A stretch of DNA of 64,000 nt, from positions 62,505,980 through 62,569,979 of the forward strand of contig NC_068575.1 of NCBI RefSeq assembly GCF_025698545.1, in the 5' to 3' direction. The notes under the pieces were generated by a model, which was not told where the DNA came from, did no database searches, and saw nothing but the letters and a program-made list of their open reading frames with translations. Both the position numbers and the translations under genes were made by a program. Shown here piece after piece: positions 24,995 to 54,168 of this stretch (positions within the stretch are counted from its first letter, which is position 1; each line of letters begins with the position of its first letter). Source of the stretch: Gossypium raimondii (lineage: Eukaryota > Streptophyta > Magnoliopsida > Malvales > Malvaceae).

Positions 24995-26669
24995 ATGTCT
25001 AACTTATACAATAACCTAGCAGTTCTTGGTTGCGAAGGCTGGTCATGGGGTTGCATCCATGCCCATGGATTTGCTCCTCTTATGGCGGCGGCGCTGGCAA
25101 TTTTCTGCTGTGCATGGTGGTGGTGGTGGGTTATGAAAATTCAAAAAATAAATCCGCCTCTACCACCTGGTCCTCTAGGCTTGCCTATAATAGGAAATCT
25201 TCCCTTCATCCAACCCGAATTGCACCGTTACTTTTTAGACCTGTCTCGAATCTATGGTCCCATCTTCAAACTTCGCTTGGGGAGAATGATTGTAATAGGC
25301 ATAAACTCAACTTCACTTGCCAACGAGGTCCTTAAAGACCAGGATGCCATCTTCGCTAACCGTGATAGTCCAGCAGCCGCCGTAGCCGGCACTTTTGGTG
25401 GTCTCGACATTGCATGGAGATCCAATGGCCCCGACTACAACCGACTGCGTAAGCTTGTTATGCGTGAAATCATGAGCAAACAAGGCTTAGATGCTTGCTA
25501 CATGCTTCGTCGACGTGAGGTACGACGAATGGTGAAGGAGATTCACGAAAAAGTCGGTTCCATAGTTAACATTGATGAACAATTATCAGCAACTGCTCTA
25601 CGAGTGATGATGAGTACGCTATGGGGTGATGATCCATCAAACTTGATTGGAGAGGAACGACAAAGCAAGGATTTGTTTGAGTTGAGGAAACGGTTGGATG
25701 AGTTTGTAAGAACATTTGCTGCACCGAATCTTTCTGATCTTTTCCCAGTTCTTGCCCCATTTGATATACAAGGAATTGAATCCAAAGCAAAGAATCTTTT
25801 GTCGTGGTTTTATGGGGTTTTTGAATCGGTGATAAATAACAGAATAAACATTGGAGATGATGGAAAAGAAAAGAAAAAAGTTAGCAAGGATTTTATGCAG
25901 CAACTGTTAGACCTACATCAGCGAGGAAATGATAAAAGCTCTTTATCCATCACCGAAGTGAAAGCTTTGCTCCTGGTAAGTAACTTTAATTAGTATCACA
26001 AAACTACCGATATTTCCATTTTACAATATTAATCTTCATATCTCATAGGATATGATGGTCGGAGGTACGGATACAATACCAACTACTGCAGAATGGGCAA
26101 TGACCGAATTGTTACGTCATCCAGATAAAATGGCAAAACTCGTTGCGGAATTAGATATGGTGGTTGGAAACCAGACTGTGGTGGAAGAATGTCATATACC
26201 CAAACTGATCTATTTGGATGCTGTCATAAAGGAAACACTTCGTCTTCACCCGGTTGTTCCATTGCTATTGCCTCACGTGCCCAGTGAAACCTCCATTATT
26301 GGTGGATATACTATCCCTAAAGATTGCAGGGTTTTCATTAATGCATGGGCCATGCAAAGGGATCCTAAGTTGTGGGACGATCCTCTTCGGTTTCAGCCTG
26401 AGAGATTCTTGGAATCCGACATGAGCTATCGAGGCAACAATTTCAGGTATTTTCCATTTGGGTCAGGAAGAAGGATTTGTGTTGGGGTTTCAATGGCGGA
26501 GAAAATGGTGGCGCTGCTCGTGGGCTCTTTGGTGCACTCATTTCAATGGGGATTATTGGAGGGGACCAAGCCTGGTTTAGAAGACAAATTTGGGATTGTT
26601 TTGAAGAAAGCAGAATCCCTTGTTGCCATACCCATTGCACGACTTCCTAATTTAGAGCAATACCAATGA
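24995..26669 (+). CDS. cytochrome P450, CYP706-like, copy A (intact)
   Basis: Haem monooxygenase, probably ER-anchored. Exons 24995-25975 and 26049-26669 with a 73-bp GT-AG intron; 533 residues. Residues 26-46 form the N-terminal membrane anchor, after an unusual leader holding CEGWSWGC and followed by five tryptophans. Proline hinge PPLPPGP at 54-60; I-helix GGTDT at 332-336; ExxR (ETLR) at 389-392; PERF at 444-447; haem loop FGSGRRICVG at 464-473, with the haem-ligand Cys at 471. All P450 signatures are present. The segments ACYMLRRREVRR and APFDIQGIE and the C-terminal PNLEQY are CYP706 features. The family includes the cotton cadinene 8-hydroxylase CYP706B1, but this protein differs clearly from it as I recall that sequence, so the substrate is unknown. 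A CYP76-type identity is less likely. Confidence 0.93.
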
Positions 26670-28541
26670 ATGTGTTCGGTTTTACATACCCATAAACTAA
26701 ATATGATATGCTATGTGACTATGTACGTGGGTGAAAAAAATGTAAGAGATAAATAAGATTTTGGTTCAAATAGTAAAGTTGAGCCATTAGACATTATATA
26801 TGGTGTGTGTTAGATTTAAATTGTATCGCATGTAAAATGTTATATAAACATTTTTAAAAATAAAAATATTTTTACAATGATATTTGTTAGTTTTTTAACT
26901 TTTTAATTAGTTCATGAAATCATGGGCGGTTTGATTCAATTACTGAATGAATCAGTAGATGTATAAGATCTATTTTTATATATTTATTGAAGTATCAATT
27001 AAAGACTTAGTATGAATATGTTCTAAATGAAATATATATACTAGTGTTATGAGCCACGGATCAAAGCCTGTGACGAATGTACACGGAATGTTTCATAGAA
27101 GTTAATTGAATAAATGAGACTCATTTGATCCACTTAAACTTGCCCGATTCATGAAACTTATGCAAAAGTTAATCTACTTGCAGCCTTGATGGTCCAATGG
27201 TACGTTAGAGTTACTATAATTAATATTTATAGTTATAATAGCTACGGTTGTAGATAGGCTTAACACTAGATATGCCTTTTACAGTATCAAGATATTCTAG
27301 CAAATATTATTGTAAGCTGAAGTAATACAAGACGCAACATAATAAAAATCGTATGTACCTGAAATGAAAATAAAATAAAACAATATGAATATATAAATAT
27401 TTTAAGTTTCATTATAAATATAAAATATTCTAAATACGATTATGTTACGACATGATAAAAGATTATAAATTGAACAGTATAGGCGGCTTGAAATTTCATC
27501 ATTTTAATAGTCTTTATATTTATAATTTTTAAAATATTAAATCAAATTATAAAGGGCCTAAATTAAAAATCTAGCATTTTAGGGTCTCTTAGTGGCTTCG
27601 CCACTGGTACCATGTTGGCTTATAGTTTTCAAGTTCAAGTACCATTTAGGTTCGAAAAGAAAAAGTTCAGGTATCAAATAAATATAAATTGTTAAATTTA
27701 GATACATTTACATATATTAACCCTTCCTATGTGGTTGAAATGTAATTTTGTTTTTCAACCACAAAATACTCATGAAAAAATTATATTTAAATAGTAATTA
27801 AAAGGAGAGTAAATTATATTAGGCATTTTTAAGCATATACAAATTTTATTGTATCAATTTAACATTGATGAAGCATAATTAAAGAAAATAGGAATGCTGA
27901 ACAATTGGAAAAATCATCACCATCAAATTTCAATTCAAAAAAGGTACAATCCTAAATTTCTTTTCTTTGACATGTCACTGTATTTACACAATGGGAGAAG
28001 AATTTTAATTGATTTGGTTGGGTTTCAACAAATCTTTGTATATTTTCTCTTAATATTGGGGTTGTATTGCGTATAATATCTGAATCATGGAAGGTAGGTA
28101 AAATGTGAGTAAATCCAGAGCAACGCCATGGATTAGTTTGGCGGCTCATCAACCGCAAAGGTCTTTCAACTTTTGATGATCACCAGATAGCTCAGCCTTT
28201 GGAAGAAAAATATAGTTTGGAAATTGATTTTTGCATTTTTTATTTTAAAAAATATTTAACGTTTTTGTCTCCTAACTCCTTATAAATAAAATGATTTTTA
28301 AATTAAAATTGGTTTTATTTGTGAAAACATGGGAGAATGAAAAAGCAAAAACTTGGTTTTAATCTCAACCTTACATCATTAATTCTTTTATTATGGATTA
28401 TTATTTTAACTCTACATTAATATTTTGCTTTAAAAATCTTTAATTACGGAATAAAAATTTTACGCCAAATAATATATTTTTTAAAAATATTGGGTTGAAA
28501 TGCAAATTTGGTTTTTCAACCACGTGGAAAATCTTGTACAT
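26670..28541. other. intergenic, 3' of copy A
   Basis: The first 80 bases match the 3' flank of copy C (44879 onward). The rest is AT-rich. The stretch 27480-27610 resembles repeat family R3 ('aaagggcctaaattaaaaat', 'ggcttcgcca'). A hairpin with arms GTGGTTGAA and TTCAACCAC lies at about 27731-27763, and a near copy lies at about 28493-28522. Confidence 0.45.
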
Positions 28542-31500
28542 TAAGAGCATGTTTGGTTGGGTGTATTGGATTAGCCAATACACCCCTAATCTGTGGCCCC
28601 ACCGATTACTGTGTTTCGTTGGCTGTATTGCCCTAATACGGGCCTATTACGTTCCGCACGAATTCCCCGTTTTCCCTTATGCAGCGCCGATTTGTAATCC
28701 CTTCCAAAAGAAAGGATTACCTAATCGGTCCTCTTTTACCCTCCCAAGCCTCTCCCGATCTCCACCCACCCTCTCCCTCCCAGCATCGACAGAAGCTGCC
28801 AGCGAACCAAAGCTCCAGCCCGTCCCGACTTCCATCTTCGCATATTTCTCTGCTAAACAGTCTCAGATCTCCGGAGGCATTGAAGCGGCAAGCGAGTAAT
28901 CTCCAGCTGGTCATCATTTCTCATTTTGGCATCTTTCCTCTCTGCATGCATTAGTGGGTGTTGTTGCAATTTTTTTTTTATAAATACGATTGCGATTGTT
29001 TCAGTTTCTTGGTAAATCGGCATAGGGTTTCTTGCTGGTTATGATTTTTTTTCATTATTTGTTTGCCTGCATTATTTGCTGGTTATGGTTTCGTTTCAAC
29101 ACTAACCGATTTCCCTTTTCTCATTACTGGTTCTTTGTTCTAACACTTCTTCATCGCAGTCGTCCCGATTTGCTCATTACAGGTTAGCTTTCCATTTGTA
29201 TTCATGGTTTTGTTTTTATGTTTTCCCCGATTGCAGGTTTGTATTGCTGTAGCAGCTTTTGTTGTTTCTGTTTTGTATGGTTCTGTTTTGTATGTTTGTA
29301 TTGCTCATCACAGCTTTTGTATGATATGAACTGAGGAATCATATTTGTATGATACATCCATTGACTTGTCTGGTGAGTGAAAGAATAGAAAACTTAAAAA
29401 ATTTCCCTTTTTGAATCTGATTTGATTGGCTTGTTGGTCCTTTCTGTGGACCAAATATCGTAGTGGTACACTATTTGCATGTTAAGAAGGGCAAAGTTTT
29501 AGTGATTGGATGATGTATGGAAGATGGTTGGAGAATGGAAATAATATGAGCAATTGGATAGACTTCTGTGATTAGCAACAAAGGTCTCCTTTTCAACTAC
29601 AGGATAACACTTTGAGAAAATTAATAAAGGTTTTATTGCAAGAGACATTCTACTCTAGGTCTATATATCTCTGTAAACCTCCTGGACTAAAAAGAAAAGG
29701 GGAGAAGGGGATTAGTTGGTTGGGGCTTTTCTTGTTCTATATGATATTAGATTCATGATATGTTCTATCTTGTTTTTCTCACATTTTGCACGATCTTTTA
29801 ATCTAATTCATCTCGAGATTTATGGATGATGGGTCAAATGGTGGTGGCTTGTAAAAGTCTGCATTAGTTTTATTTACTTTGCCTTGATCCAAACGTATCT
29901 TTGCATCAAAAGTTCTGCATTAGTTGATGGCAAGGAAAAAATGCTGGTTGTTAGTTATTTATTTCCAAAACCGAAATTAAGCACAACCTAATTTAGGCAA
30001 AAGGAATGTTGGAAGTCTGGTGATGTTTTCTTTGGGCTCTTGGTAACCAATTTTTTGTAAACTAAGGCATCTTCAATGTAGTAGCTATTATCAGTTTCGT
30101 TTTGACTAGGTGGTCGAAGTTGGTTGATCTGGCTAAGTAGAATAGTGGCCTCTAACGCTAACTATGAGATAATTTCCTTCTTTGGGGATGAGACAACTAT
30201 TCCACGAAGATTGATGCTGTACTTTGATAACGATGTATGCATAAGTTAAGTTGAAGGGATTGGAAGGAGTGAATTACAAGGTTGTCAAGATCATCGAAGA
30301 TATCCAATCCATATGAGATATTTAGGATTAGTTTGGACCAAGTTAATTCATGACTAACACAAACCAAACTGAATTATGCTAGTGGATAAATCATTGGTTT
30401 TCTAAGAACTCATTGTTAATATATTCCAAGGTTCTTCATCCTAAGCATGGGTTATGAATCTTCTTAAAATAATTCCACCACTTTCGAACCACTCGTGTTG
30501 TCTGCTAATATGATGTTAAAGAAAGCTACTAATGTCTTGAATGTTGCTCTTTCTTTTAGATTTGTGGTTGCAAGCGATTCGTGTTTGCACTGTTGTTTAG
30601 GGGCTCTTGGGAGTGTCATATTGGGCATCCTTTGTCATGTCGTTTTTATTTCTATTTTTGTTTCTCTTGTTTCTCCTTATGTCCGACCTTGTTTCCATTC
30701 TTGTTTATTGATGGATATTTTCTTCCATAATGGTTGTTTCCTTTTCTGTGGTTTTCCTTGTTTCGAAAAGACCAGGTTCGTAGTCTGGAATTAGTGATTC
30801 ACCTAGAGGAATTTCAGACTTCCCATCGTATTATTTCATCCTTCACCTCTTCTTCTTCTCACGGTCCCCATTCCTTATGCATTTGACTTGCTTTTCCTCG
30901 GATGATGTCCCCAAAAACAATAACGGGCCTTCATCGGCTCACGATGGATTTCTTAATGAGCTTCGTCACGTGCAATTCAAATGGCAATACCGACAACCGA
31001 CTCTTGATAAAGTGTGATAATGGCGATGTGGACTTATGAAGAACTTCATGAACTTTGCACTCAAGTATGTATGTGTTCATTAGTTACGAAATCAAATGCT
31101 ACTTATTTGGGCGATCGTGTTATTCGATGTAAAGCATGGTCCGCATTTGTTTATGTCATGGTCCTTGGACATGTAATTTAGATGAAAACGTTATGAAATC
31201 ATCACTATATGATGTTATATTATTACTCGGAACTCTAATGTGGTGTTTTATTCTCTTTCCTTTTATGAGACAGTAGTAGGGAGGGTATTTTGTTGCTTGG
31301 ACCAGTATGGATTTTGATGAATGCAAATCTCGTCTATAAATTTGAGTCATTGTTCTTTTAAGACGATCATTCATATTTGTGTTTTAGGGAGGAATGATCG
31401 CTAAAGTGAATCGAGTTGTATTGTTAATTCAAAACTTAAAGTCTGCGATGCCTTTTTACTCTTTTGTTCAACCTAAAGGTTTGACATGATGATGGGAATT

Positions 31501-31668
31501 GATATTTGCTTTTCTAACATCGCCTCAATTAAGCATCTAAAAGATTCATTTTTCAAATTGTAGAACAATTATGAATTGGAAAATTTTGTATGAGAGCATT
31601 ATATTCAGACATGAATAATATATAAGAATATTAATTATTCTTATATAAGAATATCACAAGCAATAACA

Positions 31669-32010
31669 ATCATTTATTATGATTTGAGTAAATTCATATA
31701 AGAATATTAATTATTAAGAATTTTATTAAATTATATATTTTAATTATAATATATTTAATAATAATTATGTTAATTTATATTTTATAGTATCATATATTAT
31801 GATTTGAGTAAATTCATATAAGAATATTGATTATTAAGAATTTTATTAAATTATATCTTTTAATTATAATATATTTAATAATAATTATGTTAATTTATAT
31901 TTTATAGTATCATATATTATGATTTGAGTAAATTCATATAAGAATATTGATTATTAAGAATTTTATTAAATTATATCTTTTAATTATAATATATTTAATA
32001 ATAATTATGT
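31669..32010. repeat. tandem repeat, 120-bp unit, about 2.8 copies
   Basis: The units beginning GATTTGAGTAAATTCATATA at 31681, 31801 and 31921 are spaced exactly 120 bases apart and are nearly identical. Copy 1 differs from copies 2 and 3 by 'attaatt' versus 'attgatt' and 'tatattt' versus 'tatcttt'. The third copy stops at about 32010. It is extremely AT-rich and non-coding. Confidence 0.95.
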
Positions 32011-32138
32011 TTAAATATGATTAAATTATTTATTATTGATATTAATAATCTTATTAAAATTTAAATAACAATAACAATAGTCATTTACCAAAACAAATTT
32101 ATGCTAAGGGTATTCTAGTCATTTTAGTTTTTTCCATT

Positions 32139-32290
32139 ATGCTATTACACCTCTATTCCATTCAACCAAACACAAGAATACTATTACGCCTCTATTCCAT
32201 TACATTCAACCAAACAATTGATTTGCTATTACACATCTATTCCATTACACCTCTATTCCATTACGTCTCTATTCCAATACAGCAAACCAA
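32139..32290. repeat. subterminal short repeats of the Harbinger-like element
   Basis: The motif 'acctctattccatt' or 'acgtctattcca' recurs about six times between 32150 and 32278, often followed by 'caaccaaaca'. Clustered subterminal repeats are typical transposase-binding regions of DNA transposons. The open frame over this stretch is an artefact of the repetition. Confidence 0.6.
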
Positions 32291-32301
32291 ACGTACTCTA
32301 A

Positions 32302-33100
32302 AAGTAAAAGTAGAAGCTGTTGGACAACCGGCATCTAACTACTGTACAATATTGACTCTATGAGTGTACGTTCACTGTTCTCTGCGGCACTCATTCAACC
32401 ACACTACAATTACACACGGTTCAATTTACCAATTGGAGTTTTAAGAAGAGTTGAAACTCTCATTTTATCCCTTTATGTTACTTTATTTTAGTATTTATAT
32501 AATTTTCATATTTCTAATTATAATTTTGATACAAAATATAAATTTAACTTAGATTTTATTATTTAATATAAATATATTTTTCATAATTCTATTTATAATA
32601 TACATTTTAATTTAATATCTTTAATACTCATTTTTTATTTTCATCTTACTGCAATAGCTACGTTTATATTCAAACACATACCTTATTATGGTGTGTTTAG
32701 AGTTGTCTATGGGTCGAGTCGGACCCTAACAAAATTCTAGGCCCAATTGATAGGCTTGACCTAAAAATAGGTCTAAAATTTTGCCAAATCTTGACTCAAA
32801 TAAAAATGTTAAAACCTTGGCCCGACCAGCCCGTATTAAATTTCTTTATATAAAAATGTTTTAAAAATATAATACATCAAAAACACTAAAAACATTAAAA
32901 TAAATGTTTCCCAATAAATTGAAAACAAATTTTTAAAAAATCTTTATACTTAAATAGCAATAAAATATGTGCAATTTAACATTTTTTTAATATATGTATT
33001 CTTTTCTCCTTTTTCATTCATTCGGGAATCCTTTTTACAATGCTTTTCATTCCTTTTTTATAACCGAATGAAAAAACAAAATAATCATAAAAAAAACAAA
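32302..33100. other. intergenic, no gene seen
   Basis: AT-rich. Positions 32330-32358 carry a sequence, 'tgtacaatattgactctat', also present at 9917-9935. At 32700-32880 there is a decayed repeat-like stretch with GC-richer phrases ('gggtcgagtcggaccctaac'). Confidence 0.4.
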
Positions 33101-34640: not shown

Positions 34641-36019
34641 CATTTATTTTTCATCATATTACTGAATTCACATTTTAAAAAAATTATAATATTTAATTTA
34701 AAATTATTAGTTAAAAAAGTTAAAATAAAAAAATTATGATAATTACGGATTTAAAAGTAATTAGAATATAAATTATAACTATTAGTTTAAAATGTTGTGC
34801 TAATTTTAAAATAGATTTGTTACTTGAATAAAATTCTTAAGCATAAAATATAGAAAAAATTTGTGAAAGCTATAATTATAATTTACAATTATTAGTTAAA
34901 ATTTTGACTTCAAAAAGTTGTGTTAATTTTATTTATGTAAAATAGAGTTATTACTTGAATAAAATTTTAAATATATTAATTATCACTTAATTAATATTAT
35001 ATTTAATTATGTTAAAAATAATTTTATTATTATTTTAAAATTTTATATTATAATATTTTAATTATTAATTAATATATTTTAATTATATTCAATAAAGATT
35101 GCTTCACGCTAATTACAATTACAATATTTTAAAACTAGTTAATATTAAACACATAAATAAAAGCATTAAATGTAATGAAATTCCATGCCACATTTCACGC
35201 ATGATTCATGATCTCCACGTGATATTAAGAAACAAAAGTTTAAAATATTAAAATAAAAAAATTGAGTAAATTGTGCGTAAAATAAAATTTAAATATGTAA
35301 ACAATATTCTTGTAAAGTTAATATTTTATTGACATAAATAATATGGATTTGAATTTAATCACATGCAAATTTTTTATTAAGTTTTTAAAATTAAAAATTA
35401 AAATATTTTCAAATAATATAACTTATTTTAATTATGAAAGAATATTTTCGTAATTTTTCTGACCGAGTTATTGTCTTGTGACACTAACTTATTGGGGGCT
35501 TAAATAATAATAAGTATAGATAAATATATTTTGTTGAGGTAAAATTAATGTTTTATTGAAATAAATAGCATAGGTTTAAACGTGCAAAGGTCTATACTAT
35601 ATTTTTAATTTAAAATTTAGCACTTGTACTTTTTATTTAAAATTTTGGTTCATCCATCTAATTTTAAAGTTAAAGCTAATAGTGTAAAAGAAAAATAACT
35701 TATTTAGCCCTCAACATTTACAATTTTTGTCGATTCGATCCTTACCTTTTAAAAGTACATAAAATTAAATGTTTTTGTGTATCATGTGAAAAAAAAAGTG
35801 ACATGACTTATATATGATAACATGTTTCCTCCATAAAAGTTTAAAATGGTATAATTTAAATTATCGAAATTAATAAAGAATTGTTGAAAATTTTAAGATG
35901 CATATAAACATGATGTTATTTTTGAATCTATATACTTTAAATAAAATAATTGATGTTAACTCACTTTGAATAAATAATTGACTCAGATGATTTGTTTCCA
36001 AAATAATTAACCATAACTT

Positions 36020-36023
<4 letters not shown>

Positions 36024-36375: not shown

Positions 36376-36554
36376 ATTTTGGATTGTAAAAAAAAAATTT
36401 CTTACAAAACTAATACCTTGGCATTTATATATTTTGAGTTAATCATTTTTCTCTTTTAGTTAAAATAGATATAGATATTTTGAATAAAATAATTTACAAG
36501 TATGTATTAAGTTGATCAGAATCTTGGAGATAAGACCATCATTAGGGTCCAAGT

Positions 36555-39289
36555 ATGACCAACTTATGCAACAAGCACACAATTCTTGCTTGCGAAGGCT
36601 GGTCATGGGGCTGCCATGCCCCTGAATTTGCTCCTCTTACGGCGGCGGCATTAGTAATTTTCTGCTGTGCATGGTGGTGCTGGGGTATGAAATTCACCAA
36701 AATAAACCCACATCTACCACTTGGTCTTTTAGGCTTGCCTATAATAGGAAACCTTCCCTTCATTAAAGTCGAATTGCACCGTTACTTTTCGGACCTGTCT
36801 CGGATCTATGGTCCCATCTTCAAACTTCGGATGGAGAGCGTGTTTGCAATAGTCATAAACTCGCCTTCACTTGCCAATGAGGTCCTCAAAATTCAGGATG
36901 CCATCTTTGCTAACCATGACGTTCCAGCAGCCGCTGTGGTCGGCACATTTGGTGGACTCAACATCTTATGGACACCCAACGGTCCTAGATACAACCGGCC
37001 GCGTAAGCTTGTTATTTGCGAAATCATGAGTAAACAAAGCTTGGATGCTTGCTACGTGCTTCATCGACGGGAGGTTCGACGAATGGTGAAGGAGATTTAC
37101 GGAAAAGTTGGTTCCTAAGTTAACATATATCAACAATTATCAGTAACCGTTCTACGAGTGATGATGTGCACGCTATGGGGTGATGCATCGTAAGATTTGA
37201 TTGAGATGAGGAAACGATTGGATGAACTTATAAGAACATTTGCAGCAGCGAACGTTTTTGATCTTTTCCCAATTCTCGCCCCATTTGATTTACAAGGAAT
37301 TGAATCCAAAGCGAAGGAGCAATTGTCGTGGTTTTATGGGGTTTTTGAATCAATGATAAAGAACCGAAGAAACATTGGAGATGATGGAAAAGAAAAGGAA
37401 AAAATTAGCAAAGATTTTATGCAGCAATTGTTGGAACTGCACTACCGTGGAGATGATAAAAACTCTTTATCCATCAACGAAGTCAAAGCTTTACTTCTGG
37501 TAAATAACTTTAACATAATAACATCCACAAAACTGTTGATAGTTTCCATTTTACAATATTAATTAATCTCCATATCTCATAGGATCTGATGGTCGCCAGT
37601 ATAGATACAATACCCACTACTGTAGAATGGACAATAACCGAACTATTACGCCATCCAGATAAAATGACGAAACTCATCGAGGAATTAGATACGGTGGTCG
37701 GAAACTAGAACATGATGGAAGAATCTCATATACCTTAACTTGTCTACTTGGATGCTATCATAAAGGAGACACTTCGTCTTCAACTGGTTGCTCCACTGCT
37801 AATTCCCCATATGCCCAGTAAGACCACTGTTATTGGTGGATATAACATCCCTAAGGGTTGCAAGGTTTTCATTAATGCATGGGTCATGCAAAGGGACCCT
37901 GAGTTGTGGGACGATTTGGGGATAGTTGGAATAGTGGTTTCGGGACCACAAATTTAATGAGAAAAAAATTTATTTTCATTGTGTTTTTATGGTCTACAAT
38001 TTCACAAAATTATTTCATGAAAATTTCTTTCGAAATTTTTGACGTTTGGGCACTCAATTTAGTCAAAAGGACTAAATTGTAAAAAGTACAAAAGTTGAGT
38101 TCTATGTGTTAGAGGTGTCCAATTGTTATGAAATTTTAAATTAAAGGTATTTACATGGTAATTAGACCATTGGTTAAGTTGGTGGACAAAAATGGGTATG
38201 GTTAGGCATGTTTCCAAAGTTTTTCATTTAGTGCATTTTGGTTATTTAGTTATTAAAATGAATTAAAAACAAAATTAAAAGCCAATTTTTGTCCATCTTC
38301 AACCCCTAGGCCGAAAATTGCATGGAGAAACCATGGCTAGGGTTTTTCAAGCTTCCAAGCTCGATTGTAAGTCCGTTCTATCCCCATTTTTAATGATTTT
38401 TACGTTTTTGAAATCCTCGTAACAAGATTTACCTATTTTTACCATTGTTTTGAACTAGGGTTTGTGTTTAAAAATTTACCCATGAATGATATGCATGTAT
38501 TTTGATGTTTGTACTAAGTAATTTTCGATGAAAATGCCTAAAAGGATTAATTTGTAAAAGTTATAAAATTCTAAAAATCTTATGGTAAGAAGATATATGA
38601 GTCTAGTTTCAGGTAAAATTTATGGATCTTAATTTGGAGTTCTGTAGCTCCGGATAAAAATAATTTAGTGACTATGATGCGAATAAACAGGTTGCTGGAA
38701 CTTGAATAAAGAATGAATTTATGTGTGATTATGATTATATTATCTATGAAAATATGCTAGAAACTTGTTTATTAATTACATACTTACTTACTAAGCTATA
38801 TGCTTATCTCTTTCTCTTTTCCCTTGTTTTATAATGTTACCAAGCGAGCTCGGAAATCGGAGGTTGTCAGAGATCCAGTCACACTATCAACTTCCTTTTG
38901 GATATTTTAGTCAAAAATATTATTTTGGAATTATGGCATGTATAGAGGACTTGGTCATTTTGTTATGTGTCATAAATTGTTCTTTATATACTATATAATA
39001 GTTAATTTTGTATAAGTCATCGATATGGACTAATATGAATTAAATTCCACGTGTATGAAATTTCAATGTTGTGTTGATAAATTTTAATGCAAGTATGTAA
39101 ATGTTTAAATGTAAAAAGAGACTTTAAAATAAAATATGAAAAAATTAATTTTGTTAAAGTTCTGTAATGCCTCGTACACGGTCCGAGCGTCTGACACAGG
39201 TAAGGGGGTGTTACACCCAGTTGATAGATTCGTTTACCAGCAAAATTGGTATGTGTGTTGGGATTTCTATGGTGGAGAAAATGATGGCT
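36555..39289 (+). pseudogene. cytochrome P450, CYP706-like, copy B (dead)
   Basis: Same two-exon plan as copies A and C: exon 1 36555-37499, exon 2 from 37583. There are in-frame stops at 37116-37118 (TTA to TAA), at about 37192-37194 (CAA to TAA), after VVGN near 37707 (TAG), and near 37736 (CAA to TAA). The proline hinge is eroded (HLPLGLLG). Exon 2 is cut after PELWDD by the insertion at 37917-39215. It resumes weakly with part of the PERF region and a piece of the haem-loop region (VCVGISM-like, 39250-39289), and the remaining 3' end is absent. It shares the 27-bp deletion before ELRKR with copy C, so it is that copy's closest relative. It cannot make a P450. Confidence 0.93.
37917..39215. 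mobile_element. insertion of about 1.3 kb in P450 copy B, possible solo LTR
   Basis: Foreign sequence between two parts of exon 2. It begins TGGGGATAGTTGG and ends GGGGGTGTTACA, so it has the TG...CA ends of an LTR. It is non-coding and AT-rich, with a GC-richer end ('cgtacacggtccgagcgtct'). No matching 5-bp target duplication is visible (left CGATT, right CCCAG), and some flanking P450 sequence is missing, so the original insertion site is altered. I know similar ends from cotton-type repeats but cannot assign a family. Confidence 0.6.
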
Positions 39290-42200: not shown

Positions 42201-43170
42201 ATATATATATATAGTAGGAGGAGGCGGCGCAGCACCTAAAAAAAACTATTGTTTTTATTTTTAATATAAATTGCCCTTTTTATTATTGTATGTTCTTGTT
42301 ATTTAAATTTATGAAATAGTTTTGATATAGTTTTAGGTTGATTTTTTATCTGATTTTTGAAATCGTGAGACTCAAAGTCGTACGTAAAAACTTTCATTCC
42401 AACAGTTGTTATTTCTCTGGTTAAGGATATAGACATCATTATCTCATAAGGTTGTATTGGCATCAAATAAAAAATAATTTGTTGATTCGGTATTGTGCGG
42501 CGTACGGCTGAAAGATCTGATATGATTGGTTGTTGTATTTGATCTATCAAGGAACACATTGGTGTATCCAATTGAGTGGTTCGTTGGATCCGTCAAGAGA
42601 AATAGCAATCAAATTTAAACAACTCGCGTGGTTGAAGCCGTTGGCCTGAGTTGGGCCATTATAGGTCGCCAGGTTGCCGAAGAGCTAAATCGTGAACGTG
42701 TGTTTCGTGATTGTTTGTTTGGTAAAAGTTAGTTGTTGGACATTTCTACAATTAATTTACAAATAGAATGGCTGGTTTGAGGTGTCTCGATGTCAATTAA
42801 AGGAGAAGACTTATTATCAATGATGGTTTGATAAAATTTATTTGAATTCAAAACCCACCACTTACTTTTGAAATAAATTATTTCCTCATTTAATTAAAAA
42901 TTAAATTATTCAAAATTTATCTTTAATTTTGTTTAAAACTATGCAAAATAAATTAAATAATAGATTAAAATTATGAAATAATACAATTTTTTTTTTAAAA
43001 ATCAAACTTTTATCTGGAATTGGGATTATAATTATACCGAAAAAGGGGGAGTAACTGTTACCCATAGAATAACTATATTTAGTGATTAATTTAAGCATTA
43101 AAGAGGTCGTAAGAAATTAATAAATGCCAGTTTGTATTGAAATATATTTTTTCCTAGCTACACATACAGT
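39290..43170. other. intergenic, between P450 copies B and C
   Basis: AT-rich and repeat-laden: 40420-40745 is similar to 35220-35600, 41455-41610 is repeat R1, and 42110-42240 has an AT run between GC-rich 'gctgcgcgc' and 'ggcggcgcagcacc' pieces. The stretch 42350-42740 is less AT-rich, with a 90-codon minus-strand open frame that I do not recognise; it may be a worn-out gene or element. Confidence 0.45.
41455..41610. repeat. dispersed repeat family R1, copy 3
   Basis: Has 'cataatctcaccttaactat', 'aggaggataaacgcctttga' and 'caaccaaactaagatttaat'. It parallels 4430-4545 and 36230-36375. Confidence 0.45.
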
Positions 43171-43174
43171 TGCT

Positions 43175-43182
43175 TTATATAT
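43175..43182 (+). promoter_or_regulatory. TATA box of CYP706-like copy C
   Basis: TATATATA about 40 bases before the ATG at 43221. The sequence from about 43100 to the ATG aligns with the copy A promoter, including 'gaggt(c/t)gta' upstream and 'AAAACAAATATGTC' at the start codon. Confidence 0.6.
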
Positions 43183-43220
43183 AGCTCCATTTCTTTTGCA
43201 TTCTATCATCAAAAACAAAT

Positions 43221-44878
43221 ATGTCCAACTTATATGATAAGCTCGCAATTCTTGCCTGCGAAGGCTGGTCATGGGATTGCCAAGCCCTTGCTCCTCTTAT
43301 GGCGACGGGGCTAGCAATTTTCTGCTGTGCATGGTGGTTGTGGCGGGGTATGAAATTCACCAAAATAAACCCACCTCTACCACCTGGTCCGTTAGGCTTG
43401 CCTATAATAGGAAACCTTCCTTTCATCCAACCTCAACTGCACCGTTACTTTTCAGACCTGTCTCGAATCTATGGTCCCATCATAAAACTTCGGATGGGGA
43501 GAATGATTGTAATAGTCATAAACTCGCCTTCACTTGCCAATGAGGTCCTCAAAGTCCAGGATGCCATCTTTGCTAACCGTGATATTCCAGCAGCCGCCGT
43601 GGTCGGCACCTTTGGTGGACTCAACATCGCATGGAGACCCAAGAGCCCTGGATACAACCGTTTGCGTAAGCTTGTTGTTTGTGAAATCATGAGTAAACAA
43701 AGCTTGGATGCTTGCTACGTGCTTCATCGACGTGAGGTTCGACGAATGGTGACGGAAATTCATGGAAAAGTTGGTTCATTAGTTAATATTGATGAACGAT
43801 TATCAGCAACCGCTCTACGATTGATGACGAGCACGCTATGGGGTGATGATCCATCACAAGATTTGATTGAGTTGAGGAAACGATTGGATGAATTTATAAT
43901 AACATTTGCAACACCGAATGTTTCTGATCTTTTCCCAATTCTCGCCCCATTTGATTTACAAGGAATTGAATCCAAAGCGAAGGAGCAATTGTCGTGGTTT
44001 TATGGGGTTTTTGAATCAATGATAAAGAACCGAAGAAACATTGGAGATGATGGAAAAAAAAAGGAAAAAATTAGCAAGGATTTTATGCAACAATTGTTGG
44101 AGCTGCACCAGCGAGGAGATGATAATAGCTCTTTATCCCTTAATGAAGTGAAGGCTTTGCTTCTGGTAAATAAATTTAACTTAACATTGTAACATATTAA
44201 CATCCACAAAACTGTTGATATTTTCCATTTTACACTACTAATCTCCATATCTCAAAGGATCTGGTGGTCGCCGGTACAGATACAATACCCACTACTGTAG
44301 AGTGGACAATGACTGAACTATTACGCCATCCAGATAAAATGACGAAACTCATTGAGGAATTAAATATGGTGGTCGGAAACCAAAACACGATGGAAGAGTC
44401 TTATATACCTCAACTTGTATACTTGGATGCTGTCATAAAGGAGACACTTCGTCTTCACCCAGTTGCTCCACTTTTACTGCCTCACGTGCCCAGTGAGACC
44501 ACCATAATTGGTGGATATACTATCCCTAAAGGTTGTAGGGTTTTCATTAATGCATGGGCCATGCAAAGGGACCTTGAGTTGTGGGATGATCCTCTTCGAT
44601 TTCAACCTGAGAGATTCTTGGAAACCGACATTAACTATCGAGACAACAATTTCAAGTATCTTCCATTTGGGTCAGGGAGGAGGATGTGTGTTGGGATTTC
44701 TATGGCGAAGAAGATGGCAGCGCTGCTCGTAGGCTCTTTGGTCCACTCATTTGAATGGAGATTGTCAGAGGAGACCAAGCTTAATTTAGAAGATAAATTT
44801 GGACTTGTTTTGAAGAAAACGGAATCACTTGTTGCTATACCCATTGCACGACTTCCTAATTTGGAGCAATACAAATGA
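43221..44878 (+). CDS. cytochrome P450, CYP706-like, copy C (intact)
   Basis: Exons 43221-44165 and 44258-44878 with a 92-bp GT-AG intron whose acceptor reads AAAG; 521 residues. The plan is the same as copy A: tryptophan-rich leader and membrane anchor (about residues 23-45), proline hinge PPLPPGP, I-helix AGTDT, ETLR at 377-380, PERF, and haem loop FGSGRRMCVG with the ligand Cys at 459. It is 12 residues shorter than copy A: three in the leader and nine between WGDDPS and ELRKR. Both gaps lie outside the catalytic motifs. All signatures are intact, so I expect a working enzyme of ER membranes that needs a P450 reductase. The substrate is unknown. The 3' flank also matches copy A. Confidence 0.93.
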
Positions 44879-44932: not shown

Positions 44933-45155
44933 GGGGACTGGCAGGGCCCAGCCCCCCTTAATAGAAAATTGTCTATTTAGACGTTTAGAAATTTTAAAAT
45001 TTTAAATTAGTTAAAGTAAAATTATACTTTGGCCCCTTAAAAATAATAAAATTTTAATTTGATCCTTTAAAAATTATAAAGATATAAACTATTAAAAATT
45101 AAAATTTAATTTCGGCCCACTTAAAAATTTTAAGGCTTCGCCTCTGATGATATGC
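44933..45155. repeat. dispersed repeat family R3, copy 2
   Basis: The head 'ggactggcagggcccagccc', AT-rich body and 'tttcggcccac' tail align with 13464-13690. It ends with 'ggcttcgcctctgatgatat', a phrase echoed near 27595. Confidence 0.6.
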
Positions 45156-45654: not shown

Positions 45655-46680
45655 ACGGCGTCGGCTTATTAAAAATGAAAATGGGAGTCGCCACCGATCT
45701 TTTATTAAGGTGTGACCGAATCACCTTAAAAATAATTTTGGTCCACAGATTTCAAAAAAAAATGGGTTCGGGAGTCAGTTACGTACGAAGAAGGGTTAGC
45801 ACCCTTGTAACGCCCAAAATTGGTACCTAATTGATTATTTAATGTCTTAAGGTCGAATGTCGAAAAAAAGATTGAAAAGTGATTCCCCTTTTTAAAAATA
45901 TTTATTGACATTTATTATTTTGCAAACTAAAAAATGGGTCATTTTGCTTCGATGAGATGAGGAAATCGAAACCCCGTAAGTTAGGGTACGATCCTTTGAA
46001 GTTCCAAAGACTACACATGAATTTGCTTTTATTTAACCACGTCTCGAGATAACAAAATGCCATATCGAATGAGTTAGGACACAACGTTTTGAATCGTCGA
46101 CATAAGCTTTGATTTGGAATTTTTATGCTTTAATTGAAAAAGAAACACTCGGTTACTTAAATTCAACGAGGAAAATTGAAGTCCAGTAAGTTAGGAACTT
46201 TTAAGAATAATCATATTATTCTCAGGACATTATTATAAAACAGTTTATTTATACACACAGAAAAGAAACTGAAATAATAATGGTAACGTCTTATATTAAT
46301 AAACATGATAAATCAAGTATGTTATTACAATCATCTCATTATTGATCTTTGGGCATACTCTAACGTTGCAGGAGTCAGCTGGAGGCGAGACGCACGTGGG
46401 GGAGGCTGATGCGTGAGCGGAGAGGAGCCTGGCTTGACTGCGGCGCAAATCATTCTAGAAACCCTAGGGATTTCTGGATGCTTCAAGCAAATAGGCCACT
46501 TCAAGTTGGGCTAGGATTTGGGTCTGGTGTTGGGTTATTTGGGTTTGGGAAATATATTTTGGGTAACTTAATTGGGCTTGCTGTTGTAATAAAAACTGGA
46601 CATTTATTTTATTTTTATTTTTATTTGGTTTTATTATTGATTGGGCAAAATTTAGGTATTACACCTACGATTTAATTGCA
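45655..46680 (-). repeat. degenerate LTR-retrotransposon-like fragment, right member of an inverted pair
   Basis: Positions 45655-46210 are the reverse complement of 34010-34640. They share 'cgggagtcgccaccgatc'-type sequence at 45690, 'gggttagcacccttgtaacg' at 45795 and 'accccgtaagttagggtacg' at 45971. Positions 46340-46680 are GC-richer ('tggaggcgagacgcacgtgg') and end 'gggcaaaatttaggtattac', like an LTR edge. No coding domains remain. Confidence 0.6.
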
Positions 46681-48720
46681 TTTATATTGTACAATCGTTG
46701 GCATGTGTTTGCTTGCTTATGATATTTATTCTTATGAATAGATTGAATTAAATATGACTTTGATTAATGCAATGCCTTCAAATTAATTGGATGGATGAAT
46801 TCTCTACCATTTCGGGAGGAAGTTTATTGGTGCTACTAACGACGGGATGCCCTCTTTCGAGCCAAGTGAACTTAAATAATTCATCATAATAAGTAAGTTT
46901 AAATAATTTAATCTGTACAAATGATAATATTGATTAAAATTATAAAATAATTCATGTGCCTTTAATTAACTAGTTCTTATATCAGGTGCGTTGCACATGA
47001 TTTTGTGTTATTTTAAATATTAAACAATATAATTTCTAATTAAATGATAATTGATTTAACTTTAAAAGTAATGAAAATGAAAAATTGGAAAATAATTTAT
47101 AGTAAATATTAAGTAATTAGATAGAATTATTAATCATTAGAATATTAGTCAAATTGTCACCTACAAATAGTTATTATTTTAATATTTCATTGCTTTTAAC
47201 TTAATATTACTTTTATATAATATTTCACTACTTTAATATTAGTTCATTTTTTTTAAAAAAAATTATATATAGTATAGGTATACATGTGGGCCTTGAAGTT
47301 AAAAGTTTTGGTTAAGATTACAACTATCCATGGGACGGATTGGGTTGCGACAAAGTTTCAAAAAATTTCAAGTTTCGAATTAATTTTGAATAAATTTAAT
47401 CTAATCTTTTTTTTTGTTTAAACTCAATTCAGTTCAATAATTAAATTAATTATTTAATTTAGTATCTACACACGAAAACAAGAGCTGACAAAAGAGAGAG
47501 AGAGATAGCTTATGTCATTAACAGAAGCAAATACAAGAAATTAAACCAAAGTAACGATAGAAATATAATTTCTAAGGTCAAATCCTAAATAAAACATCAA
47601 CTTTTAGAAACAGACAAATTGGGGAGCATCTCATAATGCATGGCAGTGAGGGAGGAAATATGAATGGATTTGGTATAACATGAATCCATGTGGGGGACAT
47701 CTTGATCTGATCTACATCTCTAGTTTTTGGGGTTTGAGGGGGCAAATTGCATCAGAGTTTTAATTTTACAGTCTTTGTTCGGTCATTTATTCTTATAAAA
47801 CAAAAGAAAAAAAAAGGGAAGAATCTTTGGATGGCATTAAATGGACAAATTTGCATGTTTATGATTCATATCACAATTTCCTCTTTAATATTTCGTAATC
47901 AGATTCCAAGATCTTGTTTTCGTGTTGGTTGAAGGTACATGCATTTTCTGCGAATAAACATGTATGCATGCAGAATCATTCCCAACCATCGTATTTGTTT
48001 CAAATTAATTGAATTTTAATTCGGTTAGTAGCATTATTATTACAATAATTAAAAAGTCGTGAATTTGAGTATACTTAAATACATTTTTTTTCATTTATGA
48101 ATTGAAGATATATGAATAAAAATAAGTAATAATCAAGAAAATATATATGCGATATGAAGATGGATGTTTTTTTCGTTATAGTATTCGTTTTCGTTCTCAA
48201 TAATATAGAAAAAAAAACAATATGAGGAAAAGTACAGCTCAAAGTACTTTATTCCTTGTTTATCAATTAAAATTTTAAAACATTTTAGATTCCACTTTCA
48301 AAAACACGTCAATGTCAAGAAACAACAATGTAGAAGTTGTCTATTAATTGTTGTTGTAATTATAAAATTTCTTAAAATAGGAGTTTTGTTGGGTTGTGAA
48401 CAGAGTTAAACATGGGAGCCTTGTCTTTTTTTTTTTTTGTAAGAAATTATCAACACAATTTAATGAAAATTTAAATTGTCTCTTCATAAAGGACACAACA
48501 GCTTATCTAACATTAATTACTGACTTGTGCAGATTTCCGAATTTATTATAATAATTTCTTTGGAAAACATCAAGTTGCTTCTACGAAGCTTATATTAGAT
48601 CCCTTTTATTTATGTTAATTTTTAACTAATTTGGAATTGAAAATATATATTAGAAGTTAAATACGTAAGTGATACTAATATATATAGTTGCAAAATAGTT
48701 ATATACTTTAAAATCAAAAC
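46681..48720. other. intergenic, no gene seen
   Basis: AT-rich with poly-A and poly-T runs and a short (GA) tract near 47495. No recognisable exon or RNA gene. Confidence 0.45.
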
Positions 48721-48724
48721 TAAT

Positions 48725-49120
48725 TGGGTTATTATACTAATTTAGTATCTGAGTTTGGTTTTAATGTTCAATTAAGTATCTGTGGTTTTTTGTCTCAATT
48801 TGGTACTTATATTTGGTTTCAATGCTCACTTTGATACTTGGTTTTTCAATTTGAAACTTGAGTTTTTTACCTATCCCAATCAAGTACTTGAGTTTAGCTT
48901 CATTGTTTAATTTGGCACTTAGTTTTTTTATCTCAATTAATTACATTTTTGTACTAAACTACACGTGTCAAACATTCATTGGGTCACATGAAAACATTTG
49001 ATCTATGTACCAAGCTGAACATTGAAACAAAACTTAAGTATCAAATTGAGACAAGAAAAACCGTAAGTATCAAATTGAACACCAAAACTAAACTCATAAA
49101 CCAAATTGTATATTAGCCCA
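48725..49120. repeat. foldback (inverted-repeat) element, about 395 bp
   Basis: The left arm, from GGGTTATTATACTAATTTAG, pairs with the reverse complement of the right arm (GGGCTAATATACAATTTGG) over about 90 bases at roughly 80% identity by eye. The arms carry reiterated 'aatttggtactta' and 'ttcaat' phrases. It is non-coding, about 170 bp upstream of the TATA tract of the DUF1442 gene. Target duplication uncertain. Confidence 0.7.
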
Positions 49121-49286
49121 AATTGGTTTCAAGTTTAGAAATGGCAAAATTGATGTTATTAACCCAAAAAATCCACTATCTTGAAATTTAACACAATAGT
49201 TAGATTTTTTTTAAAAAAAATTAACTAATAAACATGGCCAGTTGGACTTAAATTGCACACTTCAATAGTATATCATCCTCCTTAGA

Positions 49287-49302
49287 TTATATATATATAT
49301 AC
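49287..49302 (+). promoter_or_regulatory. TATA-like tract of the DUF1442 gene
   Basis: Alternating T/A run (TTATATATATATATACA) about 100 bases upstream of the ATG at 49400, a usual distance for a plant core promoter. Confidence 0.55.
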
Positions 49303-49399
49303 ATTCTCCATTAACCAACACATCTCTATCATTTGAACAAAGGCTTGTAAAACCCTTTAGTCGCTTCAATCCAAAACCTGCAACAAAAAAGAAACGAAA

Positions 49400-50120
49400 A
49401 TGGCTTTCTGGTCTGCTGAGAATGCCACAAAAGCATACCTCAAAACCTTGAAAATGGTTAGTTTCCTTCGTACATACATACAAGTTTTGCTTTGCAATTG
49501 TCTAAGAGTTCCCTATTTTGAGTTTGGTTTCATGTATGCAGGGCCAAAACGCTAAAGAACCAAACGCAGCCGAATTCATATCCGCCCTTGCAGTGGGCAA
49601 CAACGCGCAACTAATGGTCGCAGCATGTGCCGATGCTGCCGATTATACCACATTAGCTCTAGTGGCAGCCGCTCACCAAACAGGCGGCCGTGTCATTTGC
49701 ATCCTCCCCGGCACCGAACAACTCCGATCATCGAAGCAAATCCTCGGTTACGACGCTTGTCGTGTCGAGTTCGTAGTCGGTGATACTCGAAATCTACTGC
49801 TAAGCCGATACACAGAAGCCGATTTCGTGCTTATTGATTGCAACCTGGAGAATCATGAAGGCATGGTTCGAGCAGTGCCGGCTGGCACGAAACGAAATGG
49901 AGCTGTCGTTGTGGGTTATAACGCATTTGCTAAAGGTTCGTGGTGGTCCGGTGGATCGAAAACTCAATTGTTGCCTATAGGAGAAGGGCTGCTGGTCACT
50001 AGGATCAAACCAAATGCTTTGGTGAAAAGAAGCCAATGGATTGTAAAGGTGGATAAATGCACTGGGGAAGAACATGTGTTTAGGGTCAGGTTTCCACAAG
50101 GGAAAGGCATCGAAGCTTAG
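49400..50120 (+). CDS. DUF1442 family protein
   Basis: Exons 49400-49456 and 49542-50120 with an 85-bp GT-AG intron; 211 residues, the normal length for this plant family. It starts MAFWSAENATKAYLKTLKMG, the usual opening of DUF1442 proteins. The body has AEFISALAVGNNAQLMV, a GGRVICILPG turn, FVLIDCNLENHEGM and a GAVVVGYNAF segment. This order resembles a class I methyltransferase Rossmann fold, and the family is often described as methyltransferase-like, but no substrate or activity is established. No signal peptide or membrane segment. Arabidopsis At5g62280 is the likely counterpart by memory and by its closeness to RPS20 and ERL1 there. The codon usage is less AT-rich than the flanks, as expected of a real gene. 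Confidence 0.92.
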
Positions 50121-53100
50121 ATTTTCATTGTTCCACTGCTTTTTCCTGCAAACCAAACGGAAAAAAAAGGGGGTTAGCATAGGTTAAAATTAGTTTATGG
50201 AGAGTTTTAATTTGTATATAGCGATTAATATATAGTAAATCATTTGTCTCGAAGTGTTAATTAAAAAGATTGAACATTGCACTGTGCTTTGATTTTGATG
50301 GAGTTAATATGAGCTAATTTGTCATATGATTGAAAGATAATCAATGGATTAAATTCTAAAGATGACTATATTTTTGGCCCATTGCAAAGAATTTCTTAAA
50401 ACAACACCCTTCACACATTATTATAGCAATTTTAAAGAAAGGATTCAGGTTTGAACCTTCTCAATCACATTACAAAAGAAACAATCATAAAGATTAATCT
50501 CAATTAATCATAAAATTATAATTTACCTGCCTAAAGAAATATAAAATTTTGGGTATAGAATTAAAAATTTGTGTTAAAATATCTAATTTAATTATTAATT
50601 TTCAAAGAAGTAAAAAATGAAAATTTTGCATTTAATCAAATGCTAAACAAATCTGATTTTATTTTGAGAATATCTCTTATAGCCAAAGCTCCTATATTCC
50701 CTCTGGCTACGCCCTTATTTTGGAATAAGTAGTTAAGGGCAAATAGGGTCTTTGGGCCCTTTAGTTAAGTGGAATAATATAAACTTTAGTCCCTCTTAGT
50801 TATAAAGAATACAATTTAAAACTTTTGTAAATAAATTTCTTATTTTGACCCCTTTGATTTCCCCCTTGATACTAAGCTATTATTTAAATTCAAGTGAATA
50901 CCTTATGTAAATTAATATATATTTAAAGAACAATAGTTCTCAATATGAAAGACATAATTTAAGACAATGTTATTTCATGACAATGTAAAGTTAACCTATG
51001 TTTTGCTTTTACCTTAATTTAAAATCGATATCATAAACTAGAAAAAAAATATGTAAATTATATAAATTATAAAATGATGATAGAACAGGTAGATTTTGCA
51101 GAGAGCTTTAAGTTTCAATCTTTAATTAAATATAGTGGGTGAACGTGGGGGTGGTTTGCTTAATCTATCTCTAATCCAGATTAACAAAAGTAATTAATGC
51201 ACTGTTGGAAGTTGTTTATTTTCAATGTCCCTCTTATTTTGGACATCACAGGTAAGTTGATAAATATTTTAGCAATAGATTAAATAAACAAGCTATACAG
51301 CTTTTAATATGTTTATAATAGTGATGAACAACAATGCTACAATTTTGCATGTTTTCAAAGAAAATAGAACAAATATCACTATTGTTTAAAATATAATAAT
51401 TGGCTGGAACTAAAATTAAAGAAATATATATATATTGTTGAAGCGGCTATAACCAGCATCTAGCAACTAGTTTGGAGGCCAATATCACTGGTGCTGGCAA
51501 GACCAAGATTTGGTTTTAGAAAGCAGAGGGGCTATGATTTTTTTTTAGTATATAACTAAATTTATATTTGTATGTATTTTGATTCGTTTGTCTGAATTGA
51601 ATTAATTATTCGATTTTTCGAGCTACACAAATCAATTTAATATTTCTTAAAAAGTATGAACGATTGAGCAGCTTGGTAAGACTCGATATCTTGTTCAGAA
51701 TCTTGAGATTTAGAAGACCTGATATCTCGTTCAAGAGCTTGGGAAGATCCGATATTTGATTTTTCTCCACTAATTATAGAAGGTTGAGGAACTAATTAAT
51801 CATTATTGCTTTCGGACACCCTTTTCTTGAAAAAAACATTCGATTTTTTGTTGACTATAATTTAATCGAAAAACTTGAAAACTATAATAATATATTAAAC
51901 AAAAACATATTAGGAAAAAGAAAAATAATACTAAGTCAAATAAATAACATAATTTATGCAAAAATATTTACTGAGTGGTCTTTTGCGTAAGGAGTCGAGA
52001 GGAAGATAATTTATATTTTTTTACTCTGTGCTCTCAGTCTCCGCATCAAACTTCTTTCTTTTTCTCTCAACAATGTCAGCGCCTTACCAAAGGAAGATAA
52101 TTCCTTAACAAAACATATACGTCAAAATATAATAAAGTCACTAACCTAATATGTATGGGTATGGGTCAAATCAATTAATTCTGAAATTCGGCTTTAAAGT
52201 CCATATTGGGCTTTTAAGTTTAATCTTTCAAGACTCATTATACATTAATATTTGATTATTATTATTGAAGTTATATAATTAAAACTGAAAAATACTTAAT
52301 TCGTTAATATAAAGTATAACATTATGACTTAAAAGGACGAATTATATGAAATACAATTTGGCCAAGGGAGATGAACGTTATACAATGTAAACATCAAATC
52401 TAAAATATAAGATAGTTTATATATAAAATTTAAAAATCTGAAAATTTTAAAAGGGTAATTACTCATGACCCTCTGGATCCATCCTAATTTAGATTACATA
52501 TAAGATATAGACAAATTTGTTGAAATAAATGTGTGTTCCTTACAATTTAGAAATTTTTATTTTTATTTTTGTTACAATAACACGTAAAATAATTTTCCAT
52601 GATAATGATATTGGTGTCATTGTACAGATTAAGTTATGAATCATTGTGAAGATCTTGTATTACTTGTGGCATTTCAAAATCGAAATTCCATTTTGATTGA
52701 ACAAAACAAATTGAAGTTGACAATGATATGATAAAATGTAAGCCCAAAGCACATATTTTGAATTTTCTCTTCTTTTTTTATTTGAAGATAAGATATTTAT
52801 CGTTGGCAATAATGATCAATTTTTTCGTTACACATATTCTTCAAATAGATAAATGATTAATAATAGTAAGGATCAAAACCCTGACCATATGAATAAGAGA
52901 TGAGATAAATAACCATCATGTCACGCCTTATTGTTAAAAAGAACAGTTCATAAATAGGGTTAATCATATATGCGACATTGATATTGTTGATTATTGTCTT
53001 GATATTGTTTTTAAGCTTTGATCAGCACCAAGAGCATAAAAAAGCTTCATCATAGCATATAAATGCTTAGTCTTAAAAGACGGGTTTAGAGTCTAGAAAG

Positions 53101-53208
53101 AATACACTCCAGGTGGCTACAATCCATTGGGTATGGTATTGGAGAACAGTCGATACCAGAAATTACAATTGCACTGGATACGTTAGCTATACGGAAGAGC
53201 TTTAGCTC
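50121..53208. other. intergenic, no gene seen
   Basis: The first 150 bases are probably the DUF1442 3' UTR. The rest is AT-rich with scattered repeat-like phrases. The last 100 bases before P450 copy D (53100-53208) are less AT-rich but are not homologous to the promoters of copies A and C. Confidence 0.45.
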
Positions 53209-54168
53209 GTGACCAACTTATACGACAACTTCGCAATTCATGCGTGCGAAGATTGGTCATGGGGCTGCTACGCTGCTCTTAAGCTGGCGGCGCTAGTAAT
53301 TTTCTACTGTGCGTGGTGGTGGCGGGCTAAAAAATTCACCAAAACAAACCCACCTCTGCCACCTGGTCCTCGAGGCTTGCCTATAATAGCAAACCTTCCA
53401 TTCATCAGAGTGATGATGAGCACGCTTTTTGGGTGGTTCATCGGAATGGAACGAAGAGGAAAGCAAGGATTTGATTGAGTTGAGGAAACGATTAAATGAA
53501 TTTGTAAGATTATTTACAGCACCCAATGTTTGTGATCTGTTTCCAGCTCTTGCCCCGTTTGATATACAAGGAATTGTATCCAAATCGAAGAACCAATTGT
53601 CGTAGTTTTATGGGGTTTTAGAATCAGTAATGATGAACCGAATGAAGATCGGTGATGATGGAAAGAGAAGGGATGAAATTAGTGTGATTTTATGCGGCAA
53701 TTGTTAGAGCTGCATCAGCGAGGAGATGATAAAGACTCTTTATCCATCACTGAAGTAAAGGCTGTGCTTTTAGAAATTAATCCTGTTTTTCTTCAGGTTT
53801 TGAGTTTAATTGTTGTAGTTTATTTTGTTGCCGGATATACAATCCCTAAAAATTCCCGGGTTTTCATTAATGCATGCCCCATGCAAAAAGACCCTGAGTT
53901 GTAGGATGATTTCCTTCGGTTTCAGCCCAAGAAATTCTTAGATTATATTGATTACGAAGGGAACAGTTTTCCGGTCTTTGCCATTTGGGTCGGTAAGAAG
54001 GATTTGTGTCGGAATTCCATTGGCAGAGATGTGCAATCGTTCGAATGGGTATGACTGGAAGGGACGAAGCCCAGTTTAGAAGAGAATTTCAGGTTTGTTT
54101 TGAAGAAAACAGAATCACTTGTTGCCATACCCTATGCACGCCTTCCTAATTTAGAGCAGTACCAATGA
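53209..54168 (+). pseudogene. cytochrome P450, CYP706-like, copy D (deleted, dead)
   Basis: The start codon is GTG (GTGACCAAC, against ATGACCAAC or ATGTCCAAC in the other copies). The N-terminus and proline hinge are kept (NPPLPPGPRGLP). After PFIR at about 53409 the sequence jumps straight to VMMSTLFG, a deletion of about 400 bp relative to copy A. Further damage: a frameshift before the ELRKR region, TGG to TAG at about 53603, a small deletion near KDFMRQ, a second large deletion joining KAVLL to GYTIP (intron and I-helix lost; 53770-53830 is unrelated), and TGG to TAG near 53903. The haem-loop region survives in mutated form (GSVRRICVG-like). The 3' end still reads to NLEQYQ and TGA. It keeps the nine codons missing from B and C, so it is an older branch. 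Confidence 0.93.

Follow-up and report, generated by a model that had tools for sequence, protein, structure and literature searches.

The locus studied here raises the question of what a row of four cytochrome P450 copies, two of them broken, represents: which family it belongs to, how it arose, and whether its unbroken members are still maintained. The locus lies in a 64,000-nucleotide stretch of the genome of the cotton Gossypium raimondii (contig C11:62505980-62569979; "the window", whose positions are used as coordinates), about 0.6 Mb from the end of C11. Self-comparison and tblastn detect four homologous P450 segments (copies A, B, C, and D) in the window, all on the plus strand, as an earlier reading of the DNA (the sequence-only reading) had stated, and no fifth segment at E 1e-3. 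The locus is very probably what remains of a tandem array that evolved by birth and death and belongs to a CYP706 subfamily other than CYP706B. In this history, the copies branch in the order D, A, C, and B, and A and C are held by purifying selection, with B and D broken and devoid of a proximal upstream block common to the living copies; a second array on contig C5 would have been seeded from C11 via transposition; and a cluster on C12 would be a duplicate of the C11 locus left by an old polyploidy.

Copy A (24995-26669, plus strand; exons 24995-25975 and 26049-26669) and copy C (43221-44878, plus strand; exons 43221-44165 and 44258-44878) are intact CYP706 genes encoding 533 and 521 amino acids, respectively. 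Each is interrupted by one phase-0 GT-AG intron, of 73 bp in A and 92 bp in C. Both proteins match PF00067 (A, E 1.7e-95, 320.9 bits; C, E 3.5e-94, 316.6 bits; curated cut-off, 22.8). The two genes are 83% identical over 1871 aligned nucleotide columns, far beyond chance (E 0.0), and the proteins share 420 of 521 aligned residues. The two-exon plan proposed for all copies is confirmed by the clean models of A and C but fails for D, which has lost its intron. AlphaFold, run on A with C as the sole partner sequence, gave a mean predicted local distance difference test score of 30 and was not used. Searches for further relatives gave 12 pattern matches in viral contigs and 50 in further genome contigs, none of which was confirmed.

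Copies B and D are pseudogenes, in agreement with the sequence-only reading. Copy B (36555-37915, plus strand) contains four in-frame stops in 426 codons (at 37116, 37191, 37706, and 37736) and has lost the 3' half of exon 2; its homology ends at 37915, ahead of the PERF motif and the haem loop. Copy D (53209-54168, plus strand) has GTG in place of ATG and two large internal deletions, which remove about 130 residues of exon 1 and the part that encodes the I and K helices, in addition to at least three stops and one frameshift.

The living and the dead copies of the window also differ upstream. About 85-90 bp 5' of the ATG are common to A, C, and the two intact genes on C5 (C5_g1 and C5_g2). 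This proximal block lies at 24904..24994 in A and at 43137..43220 in C, both on the plus strand, with a TATA-like motif at -49 and -45, respectively. At B the upstream match stops 0-5 bp short of the ATG and at D it stops at the start codon; the block is thus missing from both. The dead C5 copies L015 and L031 retain it (about 108 and 98 bp matching A). Two short matches weigh against a clean loss of the block at B: a weak one of 99 bp (75%) between 35852-35944, about 600-700 bp upstream of B, and sequence about 350-450 bp upstream of C5_g2, and one of 60 bp between 36468-36527 and sequence downstream of C5_g1. Each may represent a repeat or part of a displaced remnant.

Whether A and C are maintained was assessed by fitting a home-made branch model of the GY94 type (F3x4) to A, B, C, C5_g1, C5_g2, and one C12 gene (C12_d) over 520 codons, 420 of which include B. 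The ratio of nonsynonymous to synonymous rates (omega) is 0.24 for A and 0.38 for C, and both reject 1 (twice the log-likelihood difference, 2dlnL, of 20.0 and 13.0, respectively). Copy B has an omega of 0.96, for which neutrality is not rejected (2dlnL 0.02; B against the rest, 2dlnL 6.6). A three-sequence run of 422 codons gives 0.33 for A, 0.31 for C, and 0.70 for B, which again does not reject 1, and four methods put the A-C pairwise omega at 0.27-0.35. These estimates all indicate that A and C, unlike B, are constrained by purifying selection as far as substitution patterns can tell, in keeping with their description as live genes. A different fate for the pair is quite improbable, namely that A and C were recently silenced and are dying while the copies on C5 and C12 replace the C11 array. 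The loss of a conserved Trp in the C-helix of both proteins (see below), the death of their neighbors B and D, and the intact relatives on C5 and C12 would suit it, but the omegas of A and C each reject 1, and the splice sites, upstream block, and reading frames of both genes are intact. A recent silencing after long constraint would escape tests of omega and of intactness.

P450s are placed in the family of a named member above 40% identity and in its subfamily above 55%. As the reference for CYP706 we use the genome's own CYP706B1 orthologue, locus L033 on contig C2 (model of 536 amino acids), which was identified by both RNA interference primers published for CYP706B1 (PMC4735898). The primers match L033 with 0 mismatches at locus positions 444-463 and 832-851 and together span 408 bases, the length of the published fragment, and L033 is the only one of 38 genome loci examined that carries both without mismatch. 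Its identity to A is 42-43% and to C 40-41% (each range reflects two alignments), marginally above the family line and below the line for subfamily CYP706B. The nearest solved P450 structures are those of sugiol synthase (7x2q) and then ferruginol synthase, which we take to be CYP76AH3 and another CYP76AH enzyme, respectively. A and C are 34-35% identical to 7x2q, the sole CYP76 member compared, below the family line, and no CYP706 is found among the best 60 of the 66 solved structures matched. In a maximum-likelihood tree of 21 proteins, with 7x2q and six other P450s of the genome as the outgroup, 14 CYP706 models form a single clade (Shimodaira-Hasegawa-like approximate likelihood ratio test 99.6, bootstrap 99; support is given in this order below). 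The gene models from elsewhere in the genome are automatic or drawn from tblastn ends and are unannotated; L041, one of the six outgroup P450s, is imperfect and contains a stop, and the dead C5 copy L015 is included in the identity table and excluded from the trees. By these sequence comparisons, A and C belong to CYP706, narrowly by identity and firmly by the tree, clustering inside the family with the genome's CYP706B1 and not outside it, as the label CYP706-like had implied.

The CYP706B1 orthologue itself sits in a cluster with other CYP706 genes at C2:46.12-46.25 Mb (L033, L034, L036, and L038).

CYP706B1 acts in gossypol synthesis (PMC4735898), and A and C belong to the same family in a genome that is that of a cotton. 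A role for the two as CYP706B-type hydroxylases of cadinene in gossypol synthesis is nonetheless exceedingly improbable: their identity to the CYP706B1 of the same genome is only 40-43%, versus about 60% for its two C2 neighbors (models from L034 and L036).

The history of the array extends beyond the window. A tblastn search of the genome with A gives at least 89 matches at E up to 1e-20. The region C5:54.616-54.724 Mb, on the minus strand, carries C5_g1 and C5_g2, whose proteins are 94% identical, and at least two dead copies; the pieces matched in this region are 66-82% identical to A. One dead copy, L015, stops within exon 2, close to the point at which a fragment about 5 kb away, L042, resumes; the two are therefore possibly one interrupted gene. 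In nucleotide trees of 850 columns, D branches first (88.6/83), followed by A, then C (95.9/91), and then B together with the two C5 genes (93/92). In a tree without D (424 codons), B groups with the C5 genes at 100/100, and C with B and the C5 genes at 90/89. The dead copy B thus has living-looking sisters elsewhere. As the C5 genes are nested within the C11 copies, the simplest direction is from C11 to C5 by transposition.

The grouping of B with the C5 genes also bears on whether the four copies arose purely by tandem duplication among themselves, with B copied from C and held close to it by gene conversion. B and C share an identical run of 133 bp, a length reached by 1 of 10000 shuffles; for a run of 13 variable sites, the figure is 69 of 20000. 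However, B is nearer to C5_g1 (91.7%) than to C (88.9%), its clade with the C5 genes has support of 100/100, and in C5_g1 and C5_g2 the same tract is also 97-98% identical to that of C, which makes it largely a slow stretch. A purely tandem origin is therefore very unlikely, and the gene conversion hinted at by the identical runs is not claimed.

A second set of relatives is collinear with the array. The array is flanked on the left by a DUF3475/DUF668 gene (5481..6899, minus strand) and on the right by a PF04674 Phi_1 gene (60116..61219, plus strand), presumably EXORDIUM-like; these two served as references for synteny with C12 and C9. Paralogues of the DUF668 gene are found at C12:56.564 Mb and C9:20.00 Mb (both minus), and paralogues of the EXORDIUM-like gene at C12:56.680 Mb and C9:20.67 Mb (both plus). 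Between the two on C12, at 56633168-56661457, lie four intact CYP706 models (C12_a-d), 52-57% identical to A. Therefore, C12 repeats the order and orientation of C11: DUF668, CYP706s, EXORDIUM-like. On C9 the two flanks are 0.66 Mb apart with no match to A between them (tblastn at E up to 1e-20). We infer that the C12 and C9 pattern is the expected trace of an ancient polyploidy and subsequent loss. No match to either flank lies near C5:54.6 Mb. Further matches of A are the CYP706B1 cluster on C2 and single ones at C10:57.83 Mb, C12:53.20 Mb, and C8:53.38 Mb. The count of four copies is thus right for the window, but the copies are part of a larger set that includes the C5 array and the collinear C12 cluster. 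The proposal of a birth-and-death cluster is supported, and the process reaches beyond the window to other chromosomes.

Several results weigh against a birth-and-death remnant outside CYP706B. The identities of A and C to CYP706B1 sit at the 40% family line. Support is only moderate for D as the outermost copy (88.6/83) and for A outside C, B, and the C5 genes (90/89; 95.9/91). An approximately unbiased test on the four window copies (0.931, 0.117, and 0.052) rejects no topology at 0.05, and D is placed only when the C5 genes and outgroups are added, not in the four-sequence tree. The omegas of the C5 pair (0.64, 2dlnL 2.07) and of the internal branches (0.59, 2dlnL 3.7) do not reject 1 at 0.05, and all omegas rest on paralogues rather than on orthologues of other species. 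The birth-and-death remnant still explains the locus best, and the outcome is a placed group of genes whose duplication, relocation, and death are mapped and in which two CYP706 members, not of the gossypol subfamily, are maintained.

The signatures of A and C depart from this ordinary picture at one residue. Both proteins retain ExxR, PERF, FGSGRRxCVG, and the (A/G)GTDT core. The sequence-only reading had credited them with every P450 signature, which is incorrect, as the Trp of the C-helix WxxxR, a signature of plant A-type P450s, is replaced by Tyr in both, with the Arg kept. The Tyr is residue 148 of A, and its codon is TAC in A, B, and C. We aligned 26 P450s (14 CYP706 models of the genome, 7x2q, and 11 other P450 models or open reading frames of the genome), picked by search rank from a genome with at least 125 PF00067 matches. 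The Trp is present in 18 of the 26, including all 12 non-CYP706 sequences. The eight that lack it (A, C, C5_g1, C12_a-d, and C10_x) all fall in the clade of A and C; the C12 and C10 genes have Leu at this position. The codon is TGC in the dead C5 copies L015 and L031 and TGG in C5_g2. In addition, the I-helix of A and C reads (A/G)GTDT-I-P, and a Pro after TDT(I/V) is found in only four of the 26 (A, C, C5_g1, and C5_g2). The W and R of WxxxR touch a haem propionate, according to a survey of the Citrus CYPome (PMC9930397). The motif is not absolutely required for being a P450.

By-eye parsimony on the tree, rather than a fitted reconstruction, suggests that Tyr was likely the ancestral state at the base of A, B, and C, followed by Cys and then Trp within the C5 group, so that C5_g2 appears to have regained the Trp. 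Such turnover inside one clade is the unusual part of the case. A limited search of the literature on the CYP706 C-helix and WxxxR found no account of it, which is weak evidence that Trp turnover in one CYP706 clade is unreported. A more far-reaching possibility is that the clade, which comprises three arrays and one single gene, remodelled its haem surroundings and that the retained copies run altered chemistry in a cotton-lineage pathway. The Trp would have changed to Leu (C12 and C10) or to Tyr (A, B, and C) and then Cys, with one C5 gene returning to Trp by the route TAC>TGC>TGG, alongside an I-helix Pro that directly follows the catalytic Thr region in A, in C, and in both intact C5 genes. 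Haem surroundings rebuilt at both places could therefore support altered chemistry, which would be a changed redox behavior or a non-hydroxylating reaction. We consider this doubtful. The replacement and apparent regain of the Trp nevertheless provide a natural mutational series on the role of this residue in a plant P450.

By likeness to characterized CYP706s, A and C would be endoplasmic reticulum-anchored P450 mono-oxygenases that oxidize small hydrophobic molecules, of which terpenoids are the most likely, with a Tyr predicted to stand in for the C-helix Trp that contacts the haem propionate. By this analogy, a terpenoid or a similar small hydrophobe is a reasonable prior for the substrate. 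Should A and C prove to act on terpenoids, they would extend little-known branches of defence chemistry in cotton. Reports on gossypol genes offer two leads. A candidate gossypol module in cotton contains seven genes annotated as CYP706A (PMC10298013). Gh_A12G290100 and Gh_A12G290200, which are higher in glanded cotton, are labelled "CYP706B1-coding" (PMC10169749), and other studies locate CYP706B1 on A03/D03 (PMC11321651, PMC7850480). If A12 corresponds to C12 here, the pair may be a mislabelled sister cluster of the array.

The window contains a few further features. A DUF1442 reading frame (49506-50120) lies between C and D, and the array is thus broken up by an unrelated gene. Kinase-domain frames at 1710-3138, at the left edge of the window, belong to a receptor-like kinase gene. 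A Ty1-copia-type element at 16404-21065 contains gag, RVT_2, and SH3 pieces, each in its own frame, and a 209-bp stretch that is 93% identical near its two ends. An Rfam scan at the gathering threshold yields nothing but the MIR7502 family, matched at 10304-10446 on both strands (88.3 and 82.3 bits); the match is a near-palindromic hairpin and may be an element like a miniature inverted-repeat transposable element.

The array can be compared with three known systems. The first is CYP706B1, the cotton (+)-delta-cadinene 8-hydroxylase, which shares with A and C the CYP706 family, a phase-0 intron at the same place, ExxR, PERF, and the haem loop, but differs in its 40-43% identity and its place in another cluster on another contig, and in keeping the C-helix Trp and an I-helix TDTTS. 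The second is Arabidopsis CYP706A3, which is reported to oxidize more than 20 mono- and sesquiterpenes (PMC9953472); it belongs to the family of A and C and serves as a model for a broad range of small hydrophobes. The third is the P450 complement of grape, for which 579 sequences are reported, 279 of them complete genes and 452 (78%) clustered (PMC6023221). Arrays that mix genes and pseudogenes, like the one in our window, are usual there, although the species is another one and the clusters described are of other families. In line with grape, the array is a well-supported case of ordinary P450 gene-family turnover.

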